DNA from: Prevotellaceae bacterium
Lineage (GTDB): Bacteria; Bacteroidota; Bacteroidia; Bacteroidales; UBA932
Length of the DNA stretch: 41,593 nucleotides
NCBI GenBank assembly: GCA_031277925.1
Contig: JAITLJ010000153.1
Span: 1 to 41,593, forward strand
Reading direction: 5' to 3'
Shown here: positions 11,139 to 41,253 of the stretch, in pieces
Numbering within the stretch: position 1 is the first letter of the stretch
How the letters are laid out: each line of letters opens with the position of its first letter
The notes under the pieces: generated by a model
Seen by the model: only the letters and a program-made list of their open reading frames with translations
What the model was told of the DNA's origin: nothing
The model's database searches: none
Made by a program: the position numbers and the translations under genes

Positions 11139-11172
11139 GAGATTGCCTCAAAAAAAGGTAATCTCTTTTTTT
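11139..11172 (+). terminator. Rho-independent terminator of the TPR lipoprotein gene
   Basis: agagattgcct-caaaaaa-aggtaatctct stem-loop followed by a T run. Confidence 0.75.
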
Positions 11173-11434
11173 ATATAGTCGCTCCTTAAAAACTGTGAAA
11201 ATAGTCGCTCCTTACGAATAAAAAAAGGACAAAGCTAAAACATTAAAAATTTCGGACAATTATTTCTTTCTGTTAATTTTGTATCAAGACAAAAGAAGAT
11301 AAAGAAAAAAGTTTATATTTTGCCGAATTTTTGCCTGTCTCTATATAAAACTCGGTATTTTTATTCGATAATTTATGCTTACAATTTATTAATAATGAAC
11401 CGTTTCAACCCTTTTTAAGGAGCGACTATATAAA
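11170..11434. repeat. Element A copy 1: interspersed non-coding repeat bounded by a perfect 21-bp inverted repeat
   Basis: tttatatagtcgctccttaaa (11170-11190) is the exact reverse complement of tttaaggagcgactatataaa (11414-11434). The interior matches copies at ~15545 and ~25056 on the opposite strand. Confidence 0.85.
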
Positions 11435-11444
11435 TGAAATCCTG

Positions 11445-15374: not shown

Positions 15375-15544
15375 AATTATATTTTTTGCACAAAAATATT
15401 ATTATTTCACCAATATTTCCGCATTTTTTTATTTCCGCATATTATTTTCCATAAATTATCAAATAAAAAATCTGCAAATAACTTTATGATAAAAGTCTGT
15501 AAAACACCACTGTTGTCCGATTAAAAAAAATCCGTTTCGATATA

Positions 15545-15810
15545 CACAGTCGCTCTTTAATAAATATTGAAACTGTTTATTATTAATGAGTTATGTGGCA
15601 AATTATCGAATAAAAATACCGTGTTTAATATAGATACAGGCAAAAATTTGGCAAAATACGAACAATTTTTTCTTTATCTTCTTTTGTCTTGATGCAAATT
15701 AACAGAAAGAAAAGATGTTCCGTTAGAGGCAGTTTTTTTCATCTTTGCACTAAATAACTGTCAGAAATTTTAATGTTTTATTATTGTCATTTTTTTATTC
15801 GTAAGGATAT
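15545..15810. repeat. Element A copy 2 (long form)
   Basis: cagtcgctctttaataaatattgaaact...aattatcgaataaaaataccgtgttt...cttttgtcttgatgcaaattaacagaaagaaaa...ttttttattcgtaagga. Same order as copy 3, with ~40-50 bp extra in the interior. Confidence 0.8.
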
Positions 15811-15951: not shown

Positions 15952-16046
15952 TAATATCAAAGCGCTATCAAAACAGACTAAAAAATAATGGTATTTTATT
16001 GATATTCAATCTGTATAAATTACAGTTTGATGGCGTTTTGGTATAA
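15952..16046. repeat. Element B copy 1 (uninterrupted)
   Basis: taatatcaaagcgctatcaaaacagac...tattgatattcaatctgtataaattacagtttgatggcgttttggtataa; matches B2 and B3. Confidence 0.75.
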
Positions 16047-16543
16047 GTTATCTTGCGCCGCTTTTCAAACAGGTTGCCTGCTTACATTTTTTGAGTTTTT
16101 GCACAAAAAATTAAAACATTTTGTAAGTTAACCATTAAAGTTTTCTTTGGCGGGATTCGTTTTTGTGGCATTATTTTATATATTTTGACACTATAAAATT
16201 GCTTGTTTTTCTTATTTTCATTTCACAATTTTAAACTGTTCACAGTACAAAAATCAAACGTAAAGGCAGGATATTTCAAGGATTTTTCAAAATAATTACA
16301 ATTATAATATATTAATATCCAAATTATTACATAAATAAAATACAGTTTTTGCTATATAGTGAATGTTTATTCATATAAAGAAACTTCATGTCTAAATTTG
16401 CAAAACGCATAGTTGCATTTTCATGTTGAATCATCAGCACATTACGATTTAAAACAAATTTTAAATTCCACACTGTATTTGTTATATTAATTTTATACTT
16501 TTGCGAAAATTTTAGTAACATCACAAACATAAATTATTATTAT

Positions 16544-17460: not shown

Positions 17461-20400
17461 ATGAAAAAACTCATATTATTATTTTTATTTGCATTTTTTG
17501 CAGGTAATGTCATATCACAAACCGATTTGACAGGTATAAAAATATACATCAATCCTGGACATGGAGGCTATGACAGCAACGATCGCAATGTACTTACAAT
17601 TCCGTTTGAATACGGCGATACGCTGGGTTTCTACGAATCAAAATCCAATTTATGGAAAGGTCTTTATCTGCGCGATTTGTTATTATCTCAAAATGCTACA
17701 GTTATGATGTCGCGCACGCTCAACAGAACGCAGGACGACAGAGTATTATCAACTATTGTTGCCGAAGCCAACGCTTTTGAACCTGACGGATTTTTATCTA
17801 TACACAGTAATGCAAACGAGTCGGCAGATAACAGTACAAATTATCTGTTGTTTTTATATTCAGGTACAGATGCTGCATCCATTACTCCCGGCACCAAAGA
17901 ATATGCTACGGCATGTTGGCCCTTTATGCTTGACAATCAACTGACATCTTGGAGTTCTACATCAGTGCGGATAAGAGGAGATTGCGATTTTTATGGCGGA
18001 TCATGTCCATATTTGGGCGTTTTAAAAAATTTGGTTTACAAAGCCTTTCTTTCAGAAGGATCGTTTCACGATTACAAACCTGAAACTCACAGGCTTTTGA
18101 ATCGGGATTACTGTAATCTTGAAGGATACAGATTTTTTCAGTTTTTTCACAGTTATTTTAATGCCGACATGCCGAATACAGGAACCATAGGAGGCTGGGT
18201 GAAAAGCGAGAACGAAAAAATGTCGCATGGGCGTTACAAATTCAGAGCAGGAAGCCCCGACCAGTGGAAACCATTGAACAATGCAACGGTAAAACTGTTT
18301 GATGCAACAGGAATCAATGAATTGCAAACATACATAACCGATACGGTGTATAACGGCATTTTTGCTTTCTACAACCTAACGCCCGGTAACTACAAATTGA
18401 AATTTGAAGCCACCGACTATATAACCGACACCGTTATCGATGTAACTGTTGAAGCAGGTAAAATAGCATACGCAAAAGTTCAACTGTACAATACAAATAT
18501 ACCTGTGCCGCGCGACTATGCAGATGATTATCCTGAACCTGTACAGCCAGGAGGAGTTGTTGCATTGAATAATTATGAATTTACTCAGGTAAACAATCAG
18601 CAACCTGCATGGTTGACCGATGCAACCAGCATCAAAAGGGCAATCTATCGCAACGACAAAATTTATGTGCTTACAACCGAACCGAAAATATATGTGTACA
18701 ATGCAATAAATTACGCATTTGTAAAGGAATTGGATTTAACCGGAATTTCGGGAGGAACACATTCAATAATCAGCGATATAGCATTTACTGCCGATAATTA
18801 TTTGCTTGCCTGCAACAAGGAAAACATTTCGTTGCCCGAAACAAGCGGACGCTATTTTAAGGTTTACACATGGAATGATGACAATTCTGCTCCGACTTTG
18901 CTTTTTGAAACACAAAATCAGGGAAGATGGACAACAGGAACAGTCGGAGAAACGTTTACGGCAAGCGGACCGCGCTGGAATGTGCGAATATATACCACAG
19001 CCGTAACAACAGGCTCATCAAAACAAATTCGCATAATGGCGCTCGAATATTGCGACACGATCCCTAATATCGGATATAAATTTATGCTGAATACAACAAA
19101 TTATACGGAAGCCTTATGGGGACAGCATCCTGTATTTACGATTTCACCTTCGGGCGACCGCGACCATATCTATCTTGACAGCGAAATACTGCTACCTCAT
19201 GAATATCAATTCGACTGGTCGAAACCCGATAGAGATTCACTGGTTCTTAAAGCCACATTTACAGAAAAATTTGGATATACAATCAACGCCATAGCTCGCG
19301 GAAGCGTTTATTTCCGTCATGCTCATCACATATTTTGGGCTACTCCTGTTTGCGAATCTTCGGCTGCTCAGGTAGGAGTTGTTTTGTTTGATGTTACAGA
19401 AGGATTGAATCAGGCGGTTAAAATATCGGAAAAATACCCAGATACAGGACTGGGCACAACATCTGCAACATATATGATGGCAGGAGCAAAAGTTGATAAT
19501 TATGATATTGAACTTTTAATTATGGCAAAAAATCAAGGTATTGCACGATACAGAACAACGCCCACTCCTGTACGCGCAAATATTTATGCATCCGAACTTA
19601 CATACAGCGGAAACAATAAATTTCAGTTCACTTTGAACGAAAATGCCGAATCTGTTGTCATAAATATTTATGACGAAAACTTTCTTAATGTTGCTTCGCA
19701 TAATGCAGGCGCACTGACGAAAGGCGTAAATATTGTAGAATATGACTTTGCTTCGTCATTGCTCAATGGAACATATTCGTGGGAAGTTACGGCAAAAGCA
19801 AGTTCGGTTGACAGACCCTCGTTAATTTCCGATAATTCATCGCAATTCCAATTTTATTCGCCGCGCGGCGTATCCATCGACAACAGTTTCAACAGTCCTT
19901 TCTTTGGACGAATATATGTATCCGAAGCTGCGGGCGGCACTGTGGCAGGCGGACGCACAACACAAAGAGGCATTTATATCCTTAATGCGGCTTGTGTTGA
20001 TACAACAAATCAGCAAAATACAAGTTATACCGGCGGAGTAACATGGCTTCCAACAGTTGAAACAGGCTATCAATATGGACCTTTGCACTTGCATGTAGCC
20101 TCAGACGGAAAAGTATATATTCCCGATTCGCATTATAACAATTCCGGCGTTTGGATAATGGATCCTGCAAATCCTTCGGCGGCGTTCATTCCCGTATTCG
20201 GAGGAACACGTAACAATGCAACAGGCGAAGTATCTGACGGAGGCACAGTGATACACAATCAAATTCCAAGTTGCTACGTGCTGGGAGAAGGAGCATCCAC
20301 GCAATTATTCATATTGAACAGAATAAGCAGTCCAGTTTCGGCTACAATAAACCGCTACGACATTGGCGAGTTGAGTTCGCCGTGGACAACTGCTCCGAGC

Positions 20401-23361
20401 AAGGTAATAAGCCTTGAAACATATTTCCAAAATGCTTACGGAACTATCGAATACGATGGAAACGGATGGTTTGCATCTCAATACAGAGCCGATGGCACTT
20501 CCGGCACTGCAGTCCCGCCGCTGATACACATTAATGCTTCGGATTCTATTGATTATAATAGCGCTAACGACCTTGAAGTTTCGGATGACGGCGCTACCGA
20601 ATATAAAATATTAGGCTCAAACAGAGGAGGAATGGCAGTTAGCCTCGACGGAAAATTATTGGCTATTGGTACAAAAGTGGGAATGGTAAGAGTTTTTGAA
20701 ATTAATTACGTACCTGACGGAGTTTCTAATCTGATTCTAAAATATGAACTGGCAACAGGAACAAACGCACAAACTCATGATGTTGCATTTGATGTTGCGG
20801 GAAATCTTTATATAGTAGATAATATTACAGAACGACTGAAAGTATTTACCTTACCCAAAGCTGACAACAGTTTTACTACTCCGGCTCCGAACTCCGCAAT
20901 GTTAACTGTTGATGCTACGCCAATAGATGAGGCTAATATTTATGCATCCGAGTTGAGTCTTTCTACTGTTGATTCCGTAGAATATACATTTTACTATACT
21001 TTGAATGCAAAAGCATCATCGCTTGTCATTCACATACTGGATAACAGCAATCAGGTGATAAAAAATATTCCTGTTACAGCGGCAGCCAACCGCACATTAG
21101 GAGCGCATCAGTTTACAACTAATATTACTGATTTGCAGGCAGGCGTTTACAAATGGGCGATAACTGCAACAGGCGCGTACAGATTGAACAGCGACACAGA
21201 TCCCACAAAGGTATCAAACGATGACGCTGAATTCAAGTTCTATGATCCTCGCAGCGTAGCTGTTGATAACAGTTTTGAAAGTCCTTTCTTTGGGCGTGTA
21301 TATATCAATGATGCACAGGGAACAGGAGCAGGCAGCGCAGGCGAAGGTATTTTTATTTTGAATGCTGCTTTGTCAGATATAACACATCAAAATGGTAATG
21401 GATATAAAGGAGGAATATCGTGGATGGCTACAAGCAGTCCGTTCCGTGCAAGCGTTGCTCCTGATGGAAAAGTATATATAACAGACTGGAGCGATGCCCA
21501 TGCGGGTATTTGGATGATGGATACCAAAAATCCGTCTGCAGCATTCACTCAAGTATTCGGAGGAACTGATATTGGCGGAGGCTTACATGCTTCAAGCGGC
21601 ATAAATATTCACGGGTCTATTTCTCATTGTTGGGTAATAGACACAGGCGTTAATACAAAACTGTTCACTTTTGACGAAGATTATGTTGATGCAGCAGTAA
21701 CAAATACAGGCAGCCTGTTACAATACAATATAGGCAACTTAACGAGTCAATGGGAACAGGCGCCAAGCGCTGTCATATATAATGATGGATTATACGGAAA
21801 TTTACAGCAAAATATGAATTCATGTATTGTTCCTGATGGACGTAACGGTTGGTGGATTTCGCAAAATAGAGCTACCAACAACGCTGCAATACCATCGCTG
21901 GTGCATCTGACCGCAGCAGGAGTTTTAACCAACTTCGGAACAAATACGGATATTCCCAATTCGACTCAGGCAGGACTGGCTGTCAACATGGATGGTACGC
22001 TGATTGCCGTAGGTTGCCAAAATGCAGTAAGAATATTTGATGTTACTTTTGATGGTGCAAATGTTCCTTCAATAACATTGAAATATACGGTTTCTACAAC
22101 GCTTGGCGTGAATACTCACGGTTTGGCTTTCGACCACGTAAACAATGTATATGTTACAGCAAGCGCAAACAGTACAGTTTTGGCAACTCGATTAGGAATT
22201 TGGGCGCTGCCAAAGACTGACAACAGTTTTACAACTCCGGCATCATTAAAATCGCTTATAATTGTTACAGCCACAAGCAAGCCTGTGGTAGAAAGCACTG
22301 TTCCTGCAAACGGAGCAAATAATGTTTCAATAAATCTTAATACCGTATCAATAACATTCAATAAAAAAATGAATTCATTGATAACAGGACTAACCGAAAT
22401 CCATTTTGGCGCAAATATTGCAGGAACATTCACTTCGTCATACTGGTCGGCGGATAACAGAACTATTATTTTAACCTGTACAGGTACGCTTGATTACAAT
22501 ACAAACTATACATTGCACATTAGCGGATTTACCGACGATACAGGTGCAATAATGAGCGATACCGTCTTTAATTTTACAACAGAACAGAAACCTCTTCAAA
22601 AAGTAACGCTGTTTGTTAATAAAGATTTGATTCCATGGACCGATCATGCTAAAACCTTTACATTAAGGCAAAGTGGACAGGTAAAATTTATCGGAACAGA
22701 TAATTTTGATGGAAGCGTAACCTTTGAAGATGTGGAAGATGGTTTATATCGCTTATATGATGGCGAAAATGATATCAAAGACCAGGTTGTTTACGGAACA
22801 ACAGGTTTCGGATTATCATATTTTACAGTAATGTTTGGTTTGCAAAACAGCGGAAAGGCAATAAATTCAACAATAGATGCAATTTACGATGGAAACGCCA
22901 TTGCAAGAGGCGATATTGTACAGGGAGGAAAAAAACTGACATTACAGGCAAAAGGCGACGGAGCAAGTTCTTATACATACACATGGCGAGGAACATGGAA
23001 AGGAAATGCAAACAGTAACATTGACGGAAACATCCTTATAACCGATGCGCTTGATAATATTGTAGATGTTCATTGTACAATAAACGGTTTGAGCGATGAC
23101 ATTATTTTGCCCCGAGTTGTAACGCCAAATGCAGATGGCGAAAACGATTTCTTCTACGTACACGGATTGGAATTATATCCGCAAAACGAGCTGAGAATCT
23201 TCAACCGTTCAGGTACAGAAGTATTCAGATCTAAAAATTACAGAAATAACACGTGGGATGGCAGCAATCTGCCCGATGACGTTTATTTCTTCAGCCTTAG
23301 CCTGATAGATGCAAACGGAGCAATTACAACAAAAACAGGATATGTGCATTTGAAAAAATAA
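17461..23361 (+). CDS. Giant secreted N-acetylmuramoyl-L-alanine amidase (Amidase_3), with a CarboxypepD-like domain, duplicated beta-propeller region, Ig-like (Big_5) domain and C-terminal CHU_C T9SS type-B sorting domain
   Basis: 1966 aa; signal peptide; INPGHGGYDSND, FYESKSN, LSIHSNA, SEGSFHDY catalytic motifs; VVESTVPANGANNVSINLNTVSITFNKKM; C-terminal VVTPNADGENDFFYVHG...LRIFNRSGTEVFRS..NNTWDGSNLPDDVYFF. Confidence 0.9.
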   Translation: MKKLILLFLFAFFAGNVISQTDLTGIKIYINPGHGGYDSNDRNVLTIPFEYGDTLGFYESKSNLWKGLYLRDLLLSQNATVMMSRTLNRTQDDRVLSTIVAEANAFEPDGFLSIHSNANESADNSTNYLLFLYSGTDAASITPGTKEYATACWPFMLDNQLTSWSSTSVRIRGDCDFYGGSCPYLGVLKNLVYKAFLSEGSFHDYKPETHRLLNRDYCNLEGYRFFQFFHSYFNADMPNTGTIGGWVKSENEKMSHGRYKFRAGSPDQWKPLNNATVKLFDATGINELQTYITDTVYNGIFAFYNLTPGNYKLKFEATDYITDTVIDVTVEAGKIAYAKVQLYNTNIPVPRDYADDYPEPVQPGGVVALNNYEFTQVNNQQPAWLTDATSIKRAIYRNDKIYVLTTEPKIYVYNAINYAFVKELDLTGISGGTHSIISDIAFTADNYLLACNKENISLPETSGRYFKVYTWNDDNSAPTLLFETQNQGRWTTGTVGETFTASGPRWNVRIYTTAVTTGSSKQIRIMALEYCDTIPNIGYKFMLNTTNYTEALWGQHPVFTISPSGDRDHIYLDSEILLPHEYQFDWSKPDRDSLVLKATFTEKFGYTINAIARGSVYFRHAHHIFWATPVCESSAAQVGVVLFDVTEGLNQAVKISEKYPDTGLGTTSATYMMAGAKVDNYDIELLIMAKNQGIARYRTTPTPVRANIYASELTYSGNNKFQFTLNENAESVVINIYDENFLNVASHNAGALTKGVNIVEYDFASSLLNGTYSWEVTAKASSVDRPSLISDNSSQFQFYSPRGVSIDNSFNSPFFGRIYVSEAAGGTVAGGRTTQRGIYILNAACVDTTNQQNTSYTGGVTWLPTVETGYQYGPLHLHVASDGKVYIPDSHYNNSGVWIMDPANPSAAFIPVFGGTRNNATGEVSDGGTVIHNQIPSCYVLGEGASTQLFILNRISSPVSATINRYDIGELSSPWTTAPSKVISLETYFQNAYGTIEYDGNGWFASQYRADGTSGTAVPPLIHINASDSIDYNSANDLEVSDDGATEYKILGSNRGGMAVSLDGKLLAIGTKVGMVRVFEINYVPDGVSNLILKYELATGTNAQTHDVAFDVAGNLYIVDNITERLKVFTLPKADNSFTTPAPNSAMLTVDATPIDEANIYASELSLSTVDSVEYTFYYTLNAKASSLVIHILDNSNQVIKNIPVTAAANRTLGAHQFTTNITDLQAGVYKWAITATGAYRLNSDTDPTKVSNDDAEFKFYDPRSVAVDNSFESPFFGRVYINDAQGTGAGSAGEGIFILNAALSDITHQNGNGYKGGISWMATSSPFRASVAPDGKVYITDWSDAHAGIWMMDTKNPSAAFTQVFGGTDIGGGLHASSGINIHGSISHCWVIDTGVNTKLFTFDEDYVDAAVTNTGSLLQYNIGNLTSQWEQAPSAVIYNDGLYGNLQQNMNSCIVPDGRNGWWISQNRATNNAAIPSLVHLTAAGVLTNFGTNTDIPNSTQAGLAVNMDGTLIAVGCQNAVRIFDVTFDGANVPSITLKYTVSTTLGVNTHGLAFDHVNNVYVTASANSTVLATRLGIWALPKTDNSFTTPASLKSLIIVTATSKPVVESTVPANGANNVSINLNTVSITFNKKMNSLITGLTEIHFGANIAGTFTSSYWSADNRTIILTCTGTLDYNTNYTLHISGFTDDTGAIMSDTVFNFTTEQKPLQKVTLFVNKDLIPWTDHAKTFTLRQSGQVKFIGTDNFDGSVTFEDVEDGLYRLYDGENDIKDQVVYGTTGFGLSYFTVMFGLQNSGKAINSTIDAIYDGNAIARGDIVQGGKKLTLQAKGDGASSYTYTWRGTWKGNANSNIDGNILITDALDNIVDVHCTINGLSDDIILPRVVTPNADGENDFFYVHGLELYPQNELRIFNRSGTEVFRSKNYRNNTWDGSNLPDDVYFFSLSLIDANGAITTKTGYVHLKK

Positions 23362-24882: not shown

Positions 24883-25023
24883 TTTTTTACTTTTTATTTG
24901 TAAAGATAATAGTTTTCTCCGTCACCTTACTAATTCCGCAAATAATAATTTTGAATTTATTGTAAATCATATAAAAACGATAAGAACATATTTTTTTGTA
25001 TTTGCAATATTCTATATCATTCC

Positions 25024-25346
25024 TTATACCAAAACGCCATCAAACTGTAATTTATATAGTTACTCCTTAATAAATACTGAAACCATTTATGATTAATAAG
25101 TTGCTGGCGTAAATTATCGAATAAAAATACCGTGTTTTATATAGATACAGGCAGAAATTCGGCAAAATATGAACTTGTTTCTTTATCTTCTTTTGTCTTG
25201 ATACAAATTAACAGAAAGAAATAATTGTTCGAAATTTTTAATGTTTTAGCATTCTCCTTTTTTTATTCGTAAGGAGCGAGAATTCAAATTGAATATCAGC
25301 AAAATATCATTATATTTTAGTTTGTTTTGATACAGTTTGGGTATAA
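25024..25346. repeat. Element B copy 2, interrupted by element A copy 3
   Basis: ttataccaaaacgccatcaaactgtaatttata [A] aattgaatatcagcaaaatatcattat...acagtttgggtataa; the two halves join to match B1 and B3. Confidence 0.8.
25056..25282. repeat. Element A copy 3 (short form)
   Basis: tagttactccttaataaatactgaaacc...gaataaaaataccgtgttttatatagatacaggcag...cttttgtcttgatacaaattaacagaaagaaa...ttttttattcgtaaggagcga. Confidence 0.85.
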
Positions 25347-25350
25347 TTTC

Positions 25351-27183: not shown

Positions 27184-29331
27184 TCATTTCACAAGTTCAA
27201 GTTCATTTATCAGCCGTTTTGCTCCTGCAAGTTTGTCGATTATAAACAGTGCGTAGCGAATATCAATGGAAATATTGCGGCAATAGTTCGGGTCGAACAT
27301 AATGTCGCTCATTGTTGATTCCCAGCAGCGGTCGAAATTCAATCCTATTAACTGTCCGTATGCGTTCAAAACGGGACTTCCCGAGTTGCCGCCTGTTGTA
27401 TGATTGGACGCCAAAAATGCAACCGGCAGTTCGCCTTTTGTATTTTTATATTCGCCAAAATCTTTTGTCGAATTAAGTTCGGCAAGTTGAGCGGGAATTT
27501 TATAGTCGGCTACATCTTCTTTGCGGCTTTTTTCAATCACGCCATCCAGCGTTGTATAATGTTTGTAAACTGTTCCGTCAACAGGCGAAAAGCCTCCGAC
27601 CTTTCCGTATGCAATACGTAAAGTTGAATTTGCATCGGGATACAGGTTTTTGTCGGTTTGCATTTCCATTTGTCCGCGCATAAAAAGTCGCTGTTTCAAT
27701 GCCAGCGTTTTATTGAGGTCTTGCAGTCTGGGCGAAATATTTTCTTTATAAAAGTCGGCAAACGATTTATAAAAAACAAGAGCAATATCATTATTAAATT
27801 CTTCTGTTTTTCCATCAATATCAGACAAAAATTCGTTAACCCATGCATGGTTTGCAAGTTTTGTTGCGGTATAAATTCTGTTTGATATTTTTGTGAAATC
27901 GTTGTTGTATTCGGCACAAAGGTTTACTAATGCAGCGGCATGATATTTTTTGTCAATATTGGTAAAATAGGTTTGCATGACTTCGGCAAATATTTTTCTG
28001 TCGGTTTCGAGATTATAGTTTTTGAAAAAATCTGCTGCTGTTTCCTGCAAAGTTTTTATTCTTTTTTGTTTGCCTTCGTCTGTTTTTTCTTTGAAAACGG
28101 AATTCAGTTTTTCGGCAAATCTTATGATTTCAGGCGCCATAACGGCTTCGTTAAAATAATCATTCAACAGCGAATATGTATTTAATTCATTATATATTTC
28201 TTTAAAATCGGCAAGCAGATTTTTATAAACCGCACGCGCTTTGTCATGTTTAATCCATTCGGTAAAACGGTTTTCAAATTCCGTTTTTTTATTCACGGCA
28301 TCCAATCGCTGCAATCCCAGATATTCGCCTTGCCATTTTTTCCATGCGTTTGCAATACTTGCCTGTTTTGATGCGTATTTTATTCGTATTTCGATGTCGT
28401 TTGCCATGTCGGCGTTTATAATATTCAAGCGTTGTGTGCGCAGTTTTATTTTATGCGGATTGTGTTTCAGCAACATGTCAACTGCATACGACGACAAATA
28501 TTCCTGCGTTCTGCCCGGAAATCCGTAGATAAATGTAAAATCGTCTTCGTTGTAACCTTTCAGTGAAATTTTTATATATCGCTTCGGAATATATGGAATG
28601 TTATCGTTCGAATACTGTGCAGGTTTGTTTTCGTTGTTTGCATAAATTCTGAAAACCGAGAAATCACCTGTATGTCGGGGCCACATCCAGTTGTCGGTGT
28701 CACCGCCGAATTTGCCTATTGCATCGGGCGGAGTGCCAACCAAACGAACATCGTTGAAAACTTCGTAAATGTACAAAATGTACTGATTGCCATAATAAAT
28801 TGGCTTTACGATGGCTTCAAATTTTCCGTTATCTTCGGCTTCTTTTGCAATTTTTATCGAACGTGCGTTGACCAAACTGTCGCGAACTTTTTCGATAGTG
28901 CTATCATCAATATCCTGCAAAATTTGCGATGTAACATCTTCCATTCGGTAAAGAAATTTAACATTAAGGTTAGGATTCGGCAATTCTTCGCTGTTCGACT
29001 GTGCCCAAAAACCTTTGTCAAGATAATTATGTTCAACTGAACTGTGATATTGAATTTGGTCATAGCCGCAATGATGATTGGTAAACAGCAGTCCGTTTTT
29101 TGAAACCACAACGCCCGTGCAGCCTCCGTTGAACTGTATTATTGCATCTTTCAAACTCGAACTGTTTATGTCGTAAATATCCTGCGCTGTAAGTTTAAAT
29201 CCTTTTTTCTGCATGTCTTCAACAGTATATTTTTGCAATATCGGAAGCCAGATGCCTTCGTCTGCAAGCGCCGTAAATGTAATTGTAATAATACAAAATG
29301 TAATAAGTAATTTTTTCATAATAAAGGTCAT
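27184..29331 (-). CDS. S46 family dipeptidyl-peptidase, DPP11-like
   Basis: 715 aa; signal peptide; GCTGVVVSKNGLLFTNHHCGYDQIQYHSS, NHTTGGNSGSPVLNAYGQLIGLNFDRCWES. The probable start is the second Met (MKKLLITF). Confidence 0.92.
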   Translation of the reverse strand: MTFIMKKLLITFCIITITFTALADEGIWLPILQKYTVEDMQKKGFKLTAQDIYDINSSSLKDAIIQFNGGCTGVVVSKNGLLFTNHHCGYDQIQYHSSVEHNYLDKGFWAQSNSEELPNPNLNVKFLYRMEDVTSQILQDIDDSTIEKVRDSLVNARSIKIAKEAEDNGKFEAIVKPIYYGNQYILYIYEVFNDVRLVGTPPDAIGKFGGDTDNWMWPRHTGDFSVFRIYANNENKPAQYSNDNIPYIPKRYIKISLKGYNEDDFTFIYGFPGRTQEYLSSYAVDMLLKHNPHKIKLRTQRLNIINADMANDIEIRIKYASKQASIANAWKKWQGEYLGLQRLDAVNKKTEFENRFTEWIKHDKARAVYKNLLADFKEIYNELNTYSLLNDYFNEAVMAPEIIRFAEKLNSVFKEKTDEGKQKRIKTLQETAADFFKNYNLETDRKIFAEVMQTYFTNIDKKYHAAALVNLCAEYNNDFTKISNRIYTATKLANHAWVNEFLSDIDGKTEEFNNDIALVFYKSFADFYKENISPRLQDLNKTLALKQRLFMRGQMEMQTDKNLYPDANSTLRIAYGKVGGFSPVDGTVYKHYTTLDGVIEKSRKEDVADYKIPAQLAELNSTKDFGEYKNTKGELPVAFLASNHTTGGNSGSPVLNAYGQLIGLNFDRCWESTMSDIMFDPNYCRNISIDIRYALFIIDKLAGAKRLINELELVK

Positions 29332-29707
29332 TTTATTTTATAATATTTTTGCTTTTTTAATTTCTTACAGATTTATGATGATTAATGTTAAATGCAAATT
29401 ACGGCAAAAACTTTCAATTATGCAAACAAATACATTATATTTTTCTTTAATAATCAACGTGCAGAAAATTTAACAGGACGCAAAGCAGGCGGCGTTTCCT
29501 CAGGTTGCAAGCCCAAATCGGAGTTGGTGTATAGCGTTGGCTGCTACTGTCCTTTTGCTCGCGCTGTGTTTATTTTTTACTGATGTTTGCACGCTTCGGT
29601 TGGCTGTTTTTGTCGCAAAATAAATTAACAGAAAGAAAATGTTATGCTGTGGATAGAATGTTGGTAAAAATGAAATCTCTTTGTGCATCACGTGCAGATT
29701 TGCCACA

Positions 29708-29792
29708 AATGACTTGAAACACCGCCGCTGCTCCACACGTAAAGCTCGGCGGCGATTATTTTTCTACCAACATTTTGTTCCTGACGGGACAG
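29708..29792 (+). repeat. 85-bp flanking direct repeat, copy 1
   Basis: aatgacttgaaacaccgccg...tttctaccaacattttgttcctgacgggacag, compared with 30258-30342. Confidence 0.7.
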
Positions 29793-29871
29793 ATTTTAGA
29801 TCTTTAAATTCACGGAATAGCCGCAAACAAATATTGATAGAAAAACTGATAAAATGACAAACGCAAAACCT

Positions 29872-30185
29872 ATTTCGACCGAATTTATGCTTTTACTGCG
29901 CATGATTTTGATGATTTCGACCGAATTTATGCTTTCACTGCGCATGTTTTTGATGATTTCGACCGAATTTATGCTTTTACTGCGCATGTTTTTGATGATT
30001 TCGACCGAAATCATGCTTTCACTGCGCATGTTTTTGATGATTTCGACCGAAATCATGCTTTCACTGCGCATGTTTTTGATGATTTCGACCGAATTTATGC
30101 TTTCACTGCGCATGTTTTTGATGATTTCGACCGAATTTATGCTTTCACTGCGCATGTTTTTGATGATTTCGACCGAATTTATGCA
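29872..30185 (+). repeat. 42-bp tandem repeat (VNTR), 7 full units plus a partial eighth
   Basis: Unit atttcgaccgaatttatgctttcactgcgcatgtttttgatg starts at 29872, 29914, 29956, 29998, 30040, 30082, 30124 and 30166 (partial). Confidence 0.97.
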
Positions 30186-30257
30186 AATACGACAATATAC
30201 AAAGCCAAATATTATAGAAGCATAATCGCCAGCGGGCGGGTTGCGCGAAGCATTGCC

Positions 30258-30342
30258 AATGACATGAAACACCGTCGGCAACTCGCGCGAAATGTACGCT
30301 TTCACGCTTCTTTCTACCAACATTCTATCCATAGCGGGACAG
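30258..30342 (+). repeat. 85-bp flanking direct repeat, copy 2
   Basis: aatgacatgaaacaccgtcgg...tttctaccaacattctatccatagcgggacag, same length as copy 1. Confidence 0.7.
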
Positions 30343-30420
30343 TTTTTTCGTCATAGCAAAAATATCTGACGGAAATCTTTAATGTTCTATCATTATCTTT
30401 TTTTTATTTGTAAGGAACGG
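30343..30420. repeat. Right part of a fourth element A copy (long-form type)
   Basis: gttttttcgtcat...tctgacggaaatctttaatgttctatcattatcttttttttatttgtaaggaacgg, resembling the A copy 2 tail gtttttttcatc...ctgtcagaaattttaatgttttattattgtcatttttttattcgtaagga. Confidence 0.65.
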
Positions 30421-30424
30421 CTGC

Positions 30425-31297
30425 TCAAAAATATTTTGCTTCCAAACCTGTAATATCGGTAAGCAGATTGTTTGCCAAACGGCTTGCGCCTATTCTGAAC
30501 AGTTTGTTGTTCTGCCATTTTTCGCCAAGCGTTGATTTCAGTATGTTGTAATATACCAGCGTTTCGGCGGCAGTTGAAATTCCGCCCGAAGGTTTTATTC
30601 CGACATTTCGTCCGCTTTGCGCTTTATAGTCGGCAATTGCCATGCACATTGCACACACGGCTTCGGGCGTTGCCGTATCGTAAAATTTGCCTGTTGATGT
30701 TTTTATAAAATCGGCGCCTCCTTCCATTGCAAGCAATGATGCAATTCTTATAAGCTGCAAATCTTTAAGCGCTCCTGTTTCGAGAATAACTTTTACATGA
30801 GTATCGCCGACAGCTTGCTTTATCTGTTCTATTTCGCTGTAAACAAATTCATAGTTTTTTTCTAAAAAGCGACCGACAGATATTACGATGTCAATTTCGT
30901 CTGCGCCGTTTTCAATTGCCAGCAAACTTTCTTTGATTTTTACATCAATAAAGGTTTGCGAAGCGGGAAAACCTGCGGTAACAGAAGCAATCCGCACATT
31001 TTTGTCGCTAAGGTTTTTGCGCACTGTACTCACAAGAGCAGGATAAACGCATATTGCCGCAACGTTTGGCAAATCGTGATAAACATTAGAAAAATTGCTG
31101 ACCTTTTCCGTCATTTGCCTTATTTGCGATATTGTATCCGTAGTATTTAACGCCGTTAAGTCTATGCTGTTGAAACATTGTTTTAGTGCTTCGGGATTAA
31201 TATTTTTTGCCAATTGCTTTGCTGTTTCAACTGTTGCCGATATTTGTTCTTCATCAACAGAGAGCGAATATTTTTGTGATATTTTTTCCATTGTCAT
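30425..31297 (-). CDS. deoC: Deoxyribose-phosphate aldolase
   Basis: 290 aa; AAICVYPALV, DEIDIVISVGRFL, VILETGALKD, FIKTSTGKF, GIKPSGGI. Confidence 0.95.
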   Translation of the reverse strand: MTMEKISQKYSLSVDEEQISATVETAKQLAKNINPEALKQCFNSIDLTALNTTDTISQIRQMTEKVSNFSNVYHDLPNVAAICVYPALVSTVRKNLSDKNVRIASVTAGFPASQTFIDVKIKESLLAIENGADEIDIVISVGRFLEKNYEFVYSEIEQIKQAVGDTHVKVILETGALKDLQLIRIASLLAMEGGADFIKTSTGKFYDTATPEAVCAMCMAIADYKAQSGRNVGIKPSGGISTAAETLVYYNILKSTLGEKWQNNKLFRIGASRLANNLLTDITGLEAKYF

Positions 31298-40931: not shown

Positions 40932-41157
40932 TTAGTTTATTATTAAAAAAATGATTTAAAAATCGCGCAAATATACTAAACAAATAATATATAATGATAA
41001 TATAACTCAAAAAAATATTGTTTTTTGCAAAGTTTGATATAATTGTCCATCAACGACTGTAAAAATTGACAGTTTGCGGATAGTTAAATTTAATTTTAGC
41101 CACAAAAGAACACATTTAATCAGTAAATGCAATGTTATACTGAAAGGAAATTGAAAA

Positions 41158-41253
41158 TAAGACCCAAACTATATAAAAACAGACGAAACCATAATGATAT
41201 TTTGCTGATATTCAATTTACATAAATTGTAGTTTGATGGAGTTTTGAGTATAA
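41158..41253. repeat. Element B copy 3 (uninterrupted)
   Basis: taagacccaaactatataaaaacagac...ataatgatattttgctgatattcaatttacataaattgtagtttgatggagttttgagtataa. Confidence 0.75.

Follow-up and report, generated by a model that had tools for sequence, protein, structure and literature searches.

The window, as we call the whole 41,593-nucleotide stretch of DNA analysed here, carries an interval rich in repeats between a peptidase S46 gene (27184-29331, minus strand) and a DeoC-family gene (30425-31297, minus strand). Elsewhere, it holds an open reading frame of 1966 aa (17461-23361, plus strand). Two inverted ends in the interval, 29646-29670 and 30311-30335, agree at 23 of 25 positions, as the preliminary description had reported, and the internal degenerate end copy (29761-29797) and the 42-bp tandem array (7.5 copies, 97%) that it had described are also present. 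Exactly two copies of the 17-nt core TGGATAGAATGTTGGTA are present in the window, inverted to each other, while chance would give 0.09 matches with three or fewer mismatches. A third, degenerate arm had been overlooked. Neither of the two open reading frames that overlap the stretch 29600-30430 matches a Pfam or NCBIfam profile, in line with the earlier statement that no recognisable protein is encoded, and a protein-coding reading of the minus strand has been rejected: the minus-strand “protein” is a translated repeat. No Rfam family matches the stretch, so a known RNA family has also been rejected. For the earlier suggestion of a nucleoid site or a structured RNA, we found no evidence of the former and none of an RNA from a known family.

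The genome of the window is an assembly of 2.15 Mb in 217 contigs and is 84% complete. BLAST of 29600-30430 against this host genome gives 117 matches; the element is therefore not single-copy. A single copy absent elsewhere had been named as counting against the earlier proposal, and this proposal of a dispersed, non-autonomous and probably mobile repeat family proves right. Different parts of the stretch match different places, and the coverage splits into modules, namely 29666-29798 (~37 matches), the array, 30220-30310, and 30311-30425. The first module is tandemly arrayed in contigs C139 and C107 with ~175–180 bp per unit. The minisatellite recurs on contigs C37, C55, C152, and C11 with differing neighbours. 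The 690-bp arrangement of the window is not repeated, as the array copies on C37, C55, and C11 have other neighbours. The parts of the cluster are given in Table 1.

Table 1. Parts of the repeat cluster and further copies of the host repeat in the window
Feature	Position	Strand	Basis or remark
Host repeat, left part (X variant), ending ...AAATTAACAGAAAGAAA	29438-29638	+	Dispersed in own genome; left junction common to 19 uninterrupted copies
Inserted cluster: unit 1, 42-bp array, unit 2 and ~20-nt right tail (TTTTTTCGTCATAGCA)	29639-30360	.	Filled/empty comparison; right limit uncertain by ± a few nt
Unit 1, complete hairpin-ended element with genus-specific interior	29638-29791	.	Covariance model and single-strand fold
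Unit 1 left arm AATGTTGGTAAAAA	29657-29670	-	14 nt
Unit 1 right arm TTTCTACCAACATT	29761-29774	+	Most conserved part in other genera
Unit 1 right outer hairpin TGTTCC-TGAC-GGGACA	29776-29791	.	Single-strand fold
Degenerate arm AATATTGATAGAAA, left end of array segment	29830-29843	-	End intact in C37 copy
42-bp tandem array, 7.5 copies	29872-30184	+	Also on C37, C55, C152, and C11, copy numbers differing
Unit 2, degenerate; left arm AAATATTATAGAAG, right arm intact	30189-30341	.	Weak covariance-model match; right arm exact
Unit 2 right arm	30311-30324	+	Exact arm match
Host repeat, right part, ...TCTGACGGAAATCTTTAATG...GTAAGGAACGGCTGCT	30361-30425	+	Own-genome copies
Host repeat without insertion, empty site 25222	25057-25281	+	Sits inside another MITE-like repeat (25022-25056/25282-25347)
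Second host repeat without insertion, empty site 11262	11167-11435	-	Host-repeat copy comparison
Host repeat with collapsed insertion, one hairpin (TGTTCCGTTAGAGGCAG) and right tail at 15713	15540-15807	+	Host-repeat copy comparison

The part of the stretch that is best kept in relatives is 29759-29792 (TTTTTCTACCAACATTTTGTTCCTGACGGGACAG), which occurs in inverted pairs ~110–150 bp apart. Among the matches listed, 48 of 124 exact motifs have an inverted partner 40–260 nt to their inside, 37 of these at 110–129 nt, and 9 have one on the outer side. The units follow a stereotyped plan in which an outer hairpin, the arm AATRTTGGTAGAAA, an inner hairpin, and a short loop are followed by their mirror image. 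Three to four perfect hairpins are found in 36 of 44 general units, and three or more in none of 440 shuffles. In an alignment of 25 units, 89% of the cells are paired, compared with 35–44% when the partner is slid, and the 94 two-sided changes exceed those of all 500 shuffles. A covariance model built from 25 units, none of them from the genus of the window, matches unit 1 over its full length (50.4 bits, E 3e-11) and unit 2 weakly (14.9 bits, E 0.05). The window therefore contains a clear unit and a degenerate one, separated by the array. The single-strand fold of unit 1 gives z = -3.2. Only 1 of 126 motif sites lies inside an open reading frame, though these frames cover 74% of the DNA. A complete unit of ~150–190 bp thus consists of two mirror-image ends, each with the outer hairpin, the 14-nt arm, and, in the general form, the inner hairpin; the genus type has an interior unlike that of the general four-hairpin form. 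Unit 1 is a member of this family, whose four-hairpin plan covaries and whose location is extragenic.

The cluster sits at one point of another dispersed repeat, between ...AAATTAACAGAAAGAAA and TAATTGTCCGAAATTTTTAATG...GTAAGGAGCGAC. This host repeat is MITE-like, with the ends TAGTCGCTCCTTA and TAAGGAGCGACTA, and the host genome contains empty, filled, and collapsed versions of the same site. Nineteen copies are uninterrupted and have 33–36 nt between the landmarks; two of them are in the window. Two collapsed copies (75–76 nt), one of them in the window, have a single hairpin and the tail. Five copies are completely filled: two with one unit (210–211 nt), two longer ones (354 and 391 nt), and the window copy (759 nt). 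Such a series is a natural record of the gain and loss of units. The copies with one hairpin and a short tail (window 15713 and locus L043) are possibly footprints of excision or of collapse between the ends. The filled and collapsed copies belong to one subfamily of the host repeat (TCTGACAG), from which most of the empty copies (TTGTCCG) are distinct. The filled copies therefore need not all stem from independent insertions, and some may descend from a few insertions that were amplified with the host repeat. In a comparison with MITEs of TIR (DDE) transposons, which have terminal inverted repeats and a target-site duplication, inverted ends were present and the bases shared at the host-repeat site were an ambiguous AAA only. 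In the congeners, the S46 peptidase gene was beside DeoC in none of the recovered loci that were checked by synteny for an empty site.

A MITE-in-MITE arrangement is also present at window 25022-25347, where a 225-bp copy of the host repeat with the ends TAGTTACTCCTTA/TAAGGAGCGA (25057-25281) interrupts a ~95-bp repeat with the ends TACCAAAACG. Other copies of the ~95-bp repeat are found at 15954-16048 and 41152-41251. In locus L023 (178-272), the TACCAAAACG repeat interrupts one of the family's units between TTTCTACTAA and TAATATTCAGTCCC, which gives another filled/empty pair.

An exact-pattern scan of named genomes finds at least 115 stretches. Among the matches listed, most are in Bacteroidales MAGs (Candidatus Symbiothrix, Azobacteroides, Tannerella, and others), and Bacteroidetes GWA2_31_9, Flavobacterium sp. 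7A, Niabella, and MAGs labelled Planctomycetaceae and Brocadiaceae are also represented. Judged by the isolate names, many of the matching MAGs are presumably of termite-gut origin. In the host genome, the covariance model gives 35 matches, in which an element can count twice, once per strand. Of 41 relatives, 24 are without a match; within the genus, 9 of 11 genomes have matches, the host genome included. One genome (G024, 94% complete) has 55 matches. In other genera, the units are found without the host repeat of the window.

The transposase link suggested in the preliminary description has proved right, as the family is tied to a tyrosine (Y1) transposase whose genes carry the same ends. 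In two loci, L056 (genome G005, the MAG “Prevotellaceae bacterium Gx485_bin110”) and L160 (a Lentimicrobiaceae MAG), a Y1 transposase gene (~153 aa) lies within an inverted motif pair. Among the 17 closest homologs of L056, about 10 have the motif on both sides, inverted and at near-fixed distances. The pair is seldom found around more distant homologs and is found around none of 7 other Y1 genes. Hairpins, usually two per side, flank most of these more distant homologs as well; their arms have other sequences, which vary jointly at the two ends. In a test of this co-evolution, in which upstream ends were compared with the reverse complements of downstream ends, the two ends of one gene match each other better than the ends of different genes do. 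This holds both for 31 loci, nearly all of the order (sum 547 vs 355 ± 18.5), and for a separate phylum-wide sample of 28 (sum 422 vs 289 ± 15.6), and the observed sum was reached by 0 of 10,000 permutations in each case. The exact motif occurs in 18 of 295 genomes of the order, and 16 of those 18 have a homolog (base rate 144/295, p = 3e-4); the close clade of the homolog is likewise enriched in motif genomes (295 genomes, p = 8e-5). Homologs are found in about half of the 295 Bacteroidales genomes and in 40% of 248 genomes sampled at phylum level. Within one genome, the homologs mostly differ widely in identity, as measured against the query. A plasmid search finds distant relatives only, the best being 50% identical (Bernardetia plasmid). 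The association of the Y1 gene with the ends and their co-evolution are thus observed in relatives of the window's genome.

A remnant of the Y1 C-terminus lies within a motif pair in locus L189, and locus L078 keeps the junction of inner hairpin and ATG while the gene is missing. Both loci point to an origin of the units by deletion from the gene-bearing form. In the window's own genome, no cognate Y1 gene is found at E up to 1, and none is detected in the repeat-rich genomes G006 and G024; the sole intact close-clade Y1 gene of the genus is that of G005. Since the host genome and G024 have no detectable Y1 gene, the units can outlast the enzyme or lie apart from it. Eight host contigs (C11, C37, C60, C66, C86, C100, C107, and C139) end at these repeats, where the assembly breaks, and this may influence both the copy numbers and the lack of a detected Y1 gene.

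The catalytic residues H55, H57, Y115, and Q119 are invariant in 64 proteins, of which 63 have Y---Q--HH and 60 have D/N-H-x-H. The Pfam match of the Y1 protein is PF01797. Because of these two signatures, the putative enzymes can be assigned to TnpA_Y1 subclass 1.2. Class 2 RAYTs have been rejected, as the class 2 Y motif (YIxxNP) is absent. Subclass 1.2 has been described as being without REPs and generally without terminal structures (Quentin et al. 2018, PMC6006769). For Bacteroidota, the data here contradict this description.

Based on these observations, we consider it very likely that the stretch is a mosaic cluster of REPIN-like non-autonomous units, mobilised in trans by Y1 (HUH) enzymes of subclass 1.2 and piled up in an unrelated MITE-like repeat. 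IS608, ISDra2, and TnpA_REP recognise hairpins on single-stranded DNA. By analogy, the Y1 enzyme would recognise the hairpin ends on single-stranded DNA and would mobilise small non-coding derivatives in trans. Such mobilisation in trans has been proposed for REPINs (PMC3116915), and a hairpin-recognising TnpA_REP has been studied (PMC8266576). Related units would very probably have been moved by an IS200-like TnpA_Y1 of subclass 1.2, the genes of which lie between the same kind of ends, and the units look like a gene-bearing element with the gene deleted or replaced. In the window, the units and the 42-bp minisatellite would have accumulated at one site of the MITE-like repeat. The cognate gene of this genome was presumably lost or not assembled, and we infer that such an enzyme moved these particular copies.

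An alternative, which we regard as unlikely, is that the units are now immobile, either as a structured terminator, attenuator, or RNA element under selection or as passively spread cargo of the host repeat, with a purely ancestral linkage to Y1. The strong hairpins with compensatory change would fit this reading, as would the single subfamily formed by the filled host-repeat copies and the host genome's lack of a detected Y1 gene. However, no Rfam family matches, units occur without the host repeat in other genera, and the ends co-evolve with the Y1 gene across the phylum. It is also unlikely that the units are ordinary IS200/IS605 (subclass 1.1) remnants, meaning insertion sequences with internal deletions that moved in their own right and formed no REP-like population. 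The L056 protein passes the cut-off of the NCBI IS200/IS605 model NF033573 (70.5 vs 55 bits) and falls below that of the NCBI REP-transposase model (39.7 vs 80), and the solved structures that come nearest are those of transposases, 2xm3 for example. IS200/IS605 ends, however, have subterminal hairpins, whereas the ends here are mirror-image double hairpins on both sides; the signature Y---Q--HH defines subclass 1.2, and the non-coding units far outnumber the gene. The single composite ~690-bp transposable element of the preliminary description, delimited by the 25-bp inverted ends, is rejected as highly improbable despite the match between its two ends, since these belong to two separate ~150-bp units that the covariance model delimits (the second weakly), the inverted partner of the motif is 100–130 nt away in most paired copies, the neighbours of the array differ between loci, and the other filled sites hold only 210–391 nt up to the right landmark. 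That description had also made its case depend on the ends delimiting a unit in other copies, and they do delimit the ~150-bp unit but not one of 690 bp.

The preferred reading of trans-mobilised, REPIN-like units can be compared with known systems. REPINs or BIMEs with their RAYTs (TnpA_REP, class 2; Pseudomonas fluorescens SBW25 and E. coli; PMC3116915, PMC2817692, PMC6006769) share short extragenic palindromic units, inverted halves, compensatory changes, clustered or tandem copies, a Y1 gene flanked by inverted cognate repeats, and the co-evolution of gene and repeat. As in REPINs, two inverted palindromic repeats with a spacer are dispersed in extragenic DNA here, and a cognate Y1 gene flanked by the same inverted repeats, with co-evolution, is found in relatives but not in the own genome. 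The differences are that the enzyme here is of subclass 1.2 (Y---Q--HH) and not of class 2 (Y...NP), and that there are two hairpins per half instead of one. Also, GT[AG]G is not found 0–2 nt 5' of the hairpin foot; a GTAG is conserved, at ~9 nt to the 3' side of the outer hairpin and ~28 nt to the 5' side of the inner hairpin. Because a GT[AG]G at the hairpin foot and the class 2 Y motif are lacking, the family is not filed as a member of REPIN/RAYT; its mode of action would nevertheless be of that kind.

The published subclass 1.2 (PMC6006769) has in common with the present enzymes the signature Y---Q--HH, a length of ~150 aa, the occurrence in Bacteroidetes, and a low copy number, but the genes here are flanked by covarying double-hairpin ends, and one clade has many dispersed non-coding copies. 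IS200/IS605 elements (IS608 and ISDra2; subclass 1.1) share the HUH/Y1 enzyme family by sequence and the hairpin ends, and differ from the present system in its symmetrical inverted ends, its many small non-coding units, and its other signature. In Porphyromonas gingivalis, also of the Bacteroidales, MITE464/PgRS and BrickBuilt show a minisatellite of 41 or 23 nt inside an intergenic repeat that is MITE-like, and one MITE nested in another is found as well (PMC4596501). Their ends (GAGACC...) match the IS5 family, while the ends here match Y1-associated hairpins and the array lies between units. In the openly licensed PMC literature, no earlier description was found on the motif letters, on RAYT/REPIN in Bacteroidetes, or on subclass 1.2.

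On a wider scale, we somewhat favour the view that a separate REPIN-like system with double-hairpin ends spans the phylum and has the subclass 1.2 Y1 proteins as its enzymes, and that elements of one clade have also reached other phyla, as seen in Planctomycetota-labelled MAGs, where habitats such as termite guts are shared. A large Y1 group that the main published classification deems REP-less and IS-less would thereby gain a likely target and a function that can be tested. Such a system would also explain a common kind of intergenic repeat in Bacteroidota and the spurious “hypothetical proteins” translated from it, and the end motif would be a simple marker for finding such elements. The motif, and in one case a close Y1 enzyme, is seen in Planctomycetaceae-labelled MAGs (loci L079, L089, L096, L099, L108, L118, L133, L177, and L258), for which transfer between phyla or misbinning is possible. 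In this MAG, Th196P3bin88, the enzyme is 61% identical, and the contigs with the motif have a GC content of 0.48–0.54 and genes including ThuA and cytochrome b. These features do not suggest misbinned Bacteroidales, though misbinning may still have occurred. In congeneric genomes, a separate hairpin repeat, CCTAACAGGTTTCGGAAACCTGTTAGG, adjoins the units (loci L054, L056, and L074).
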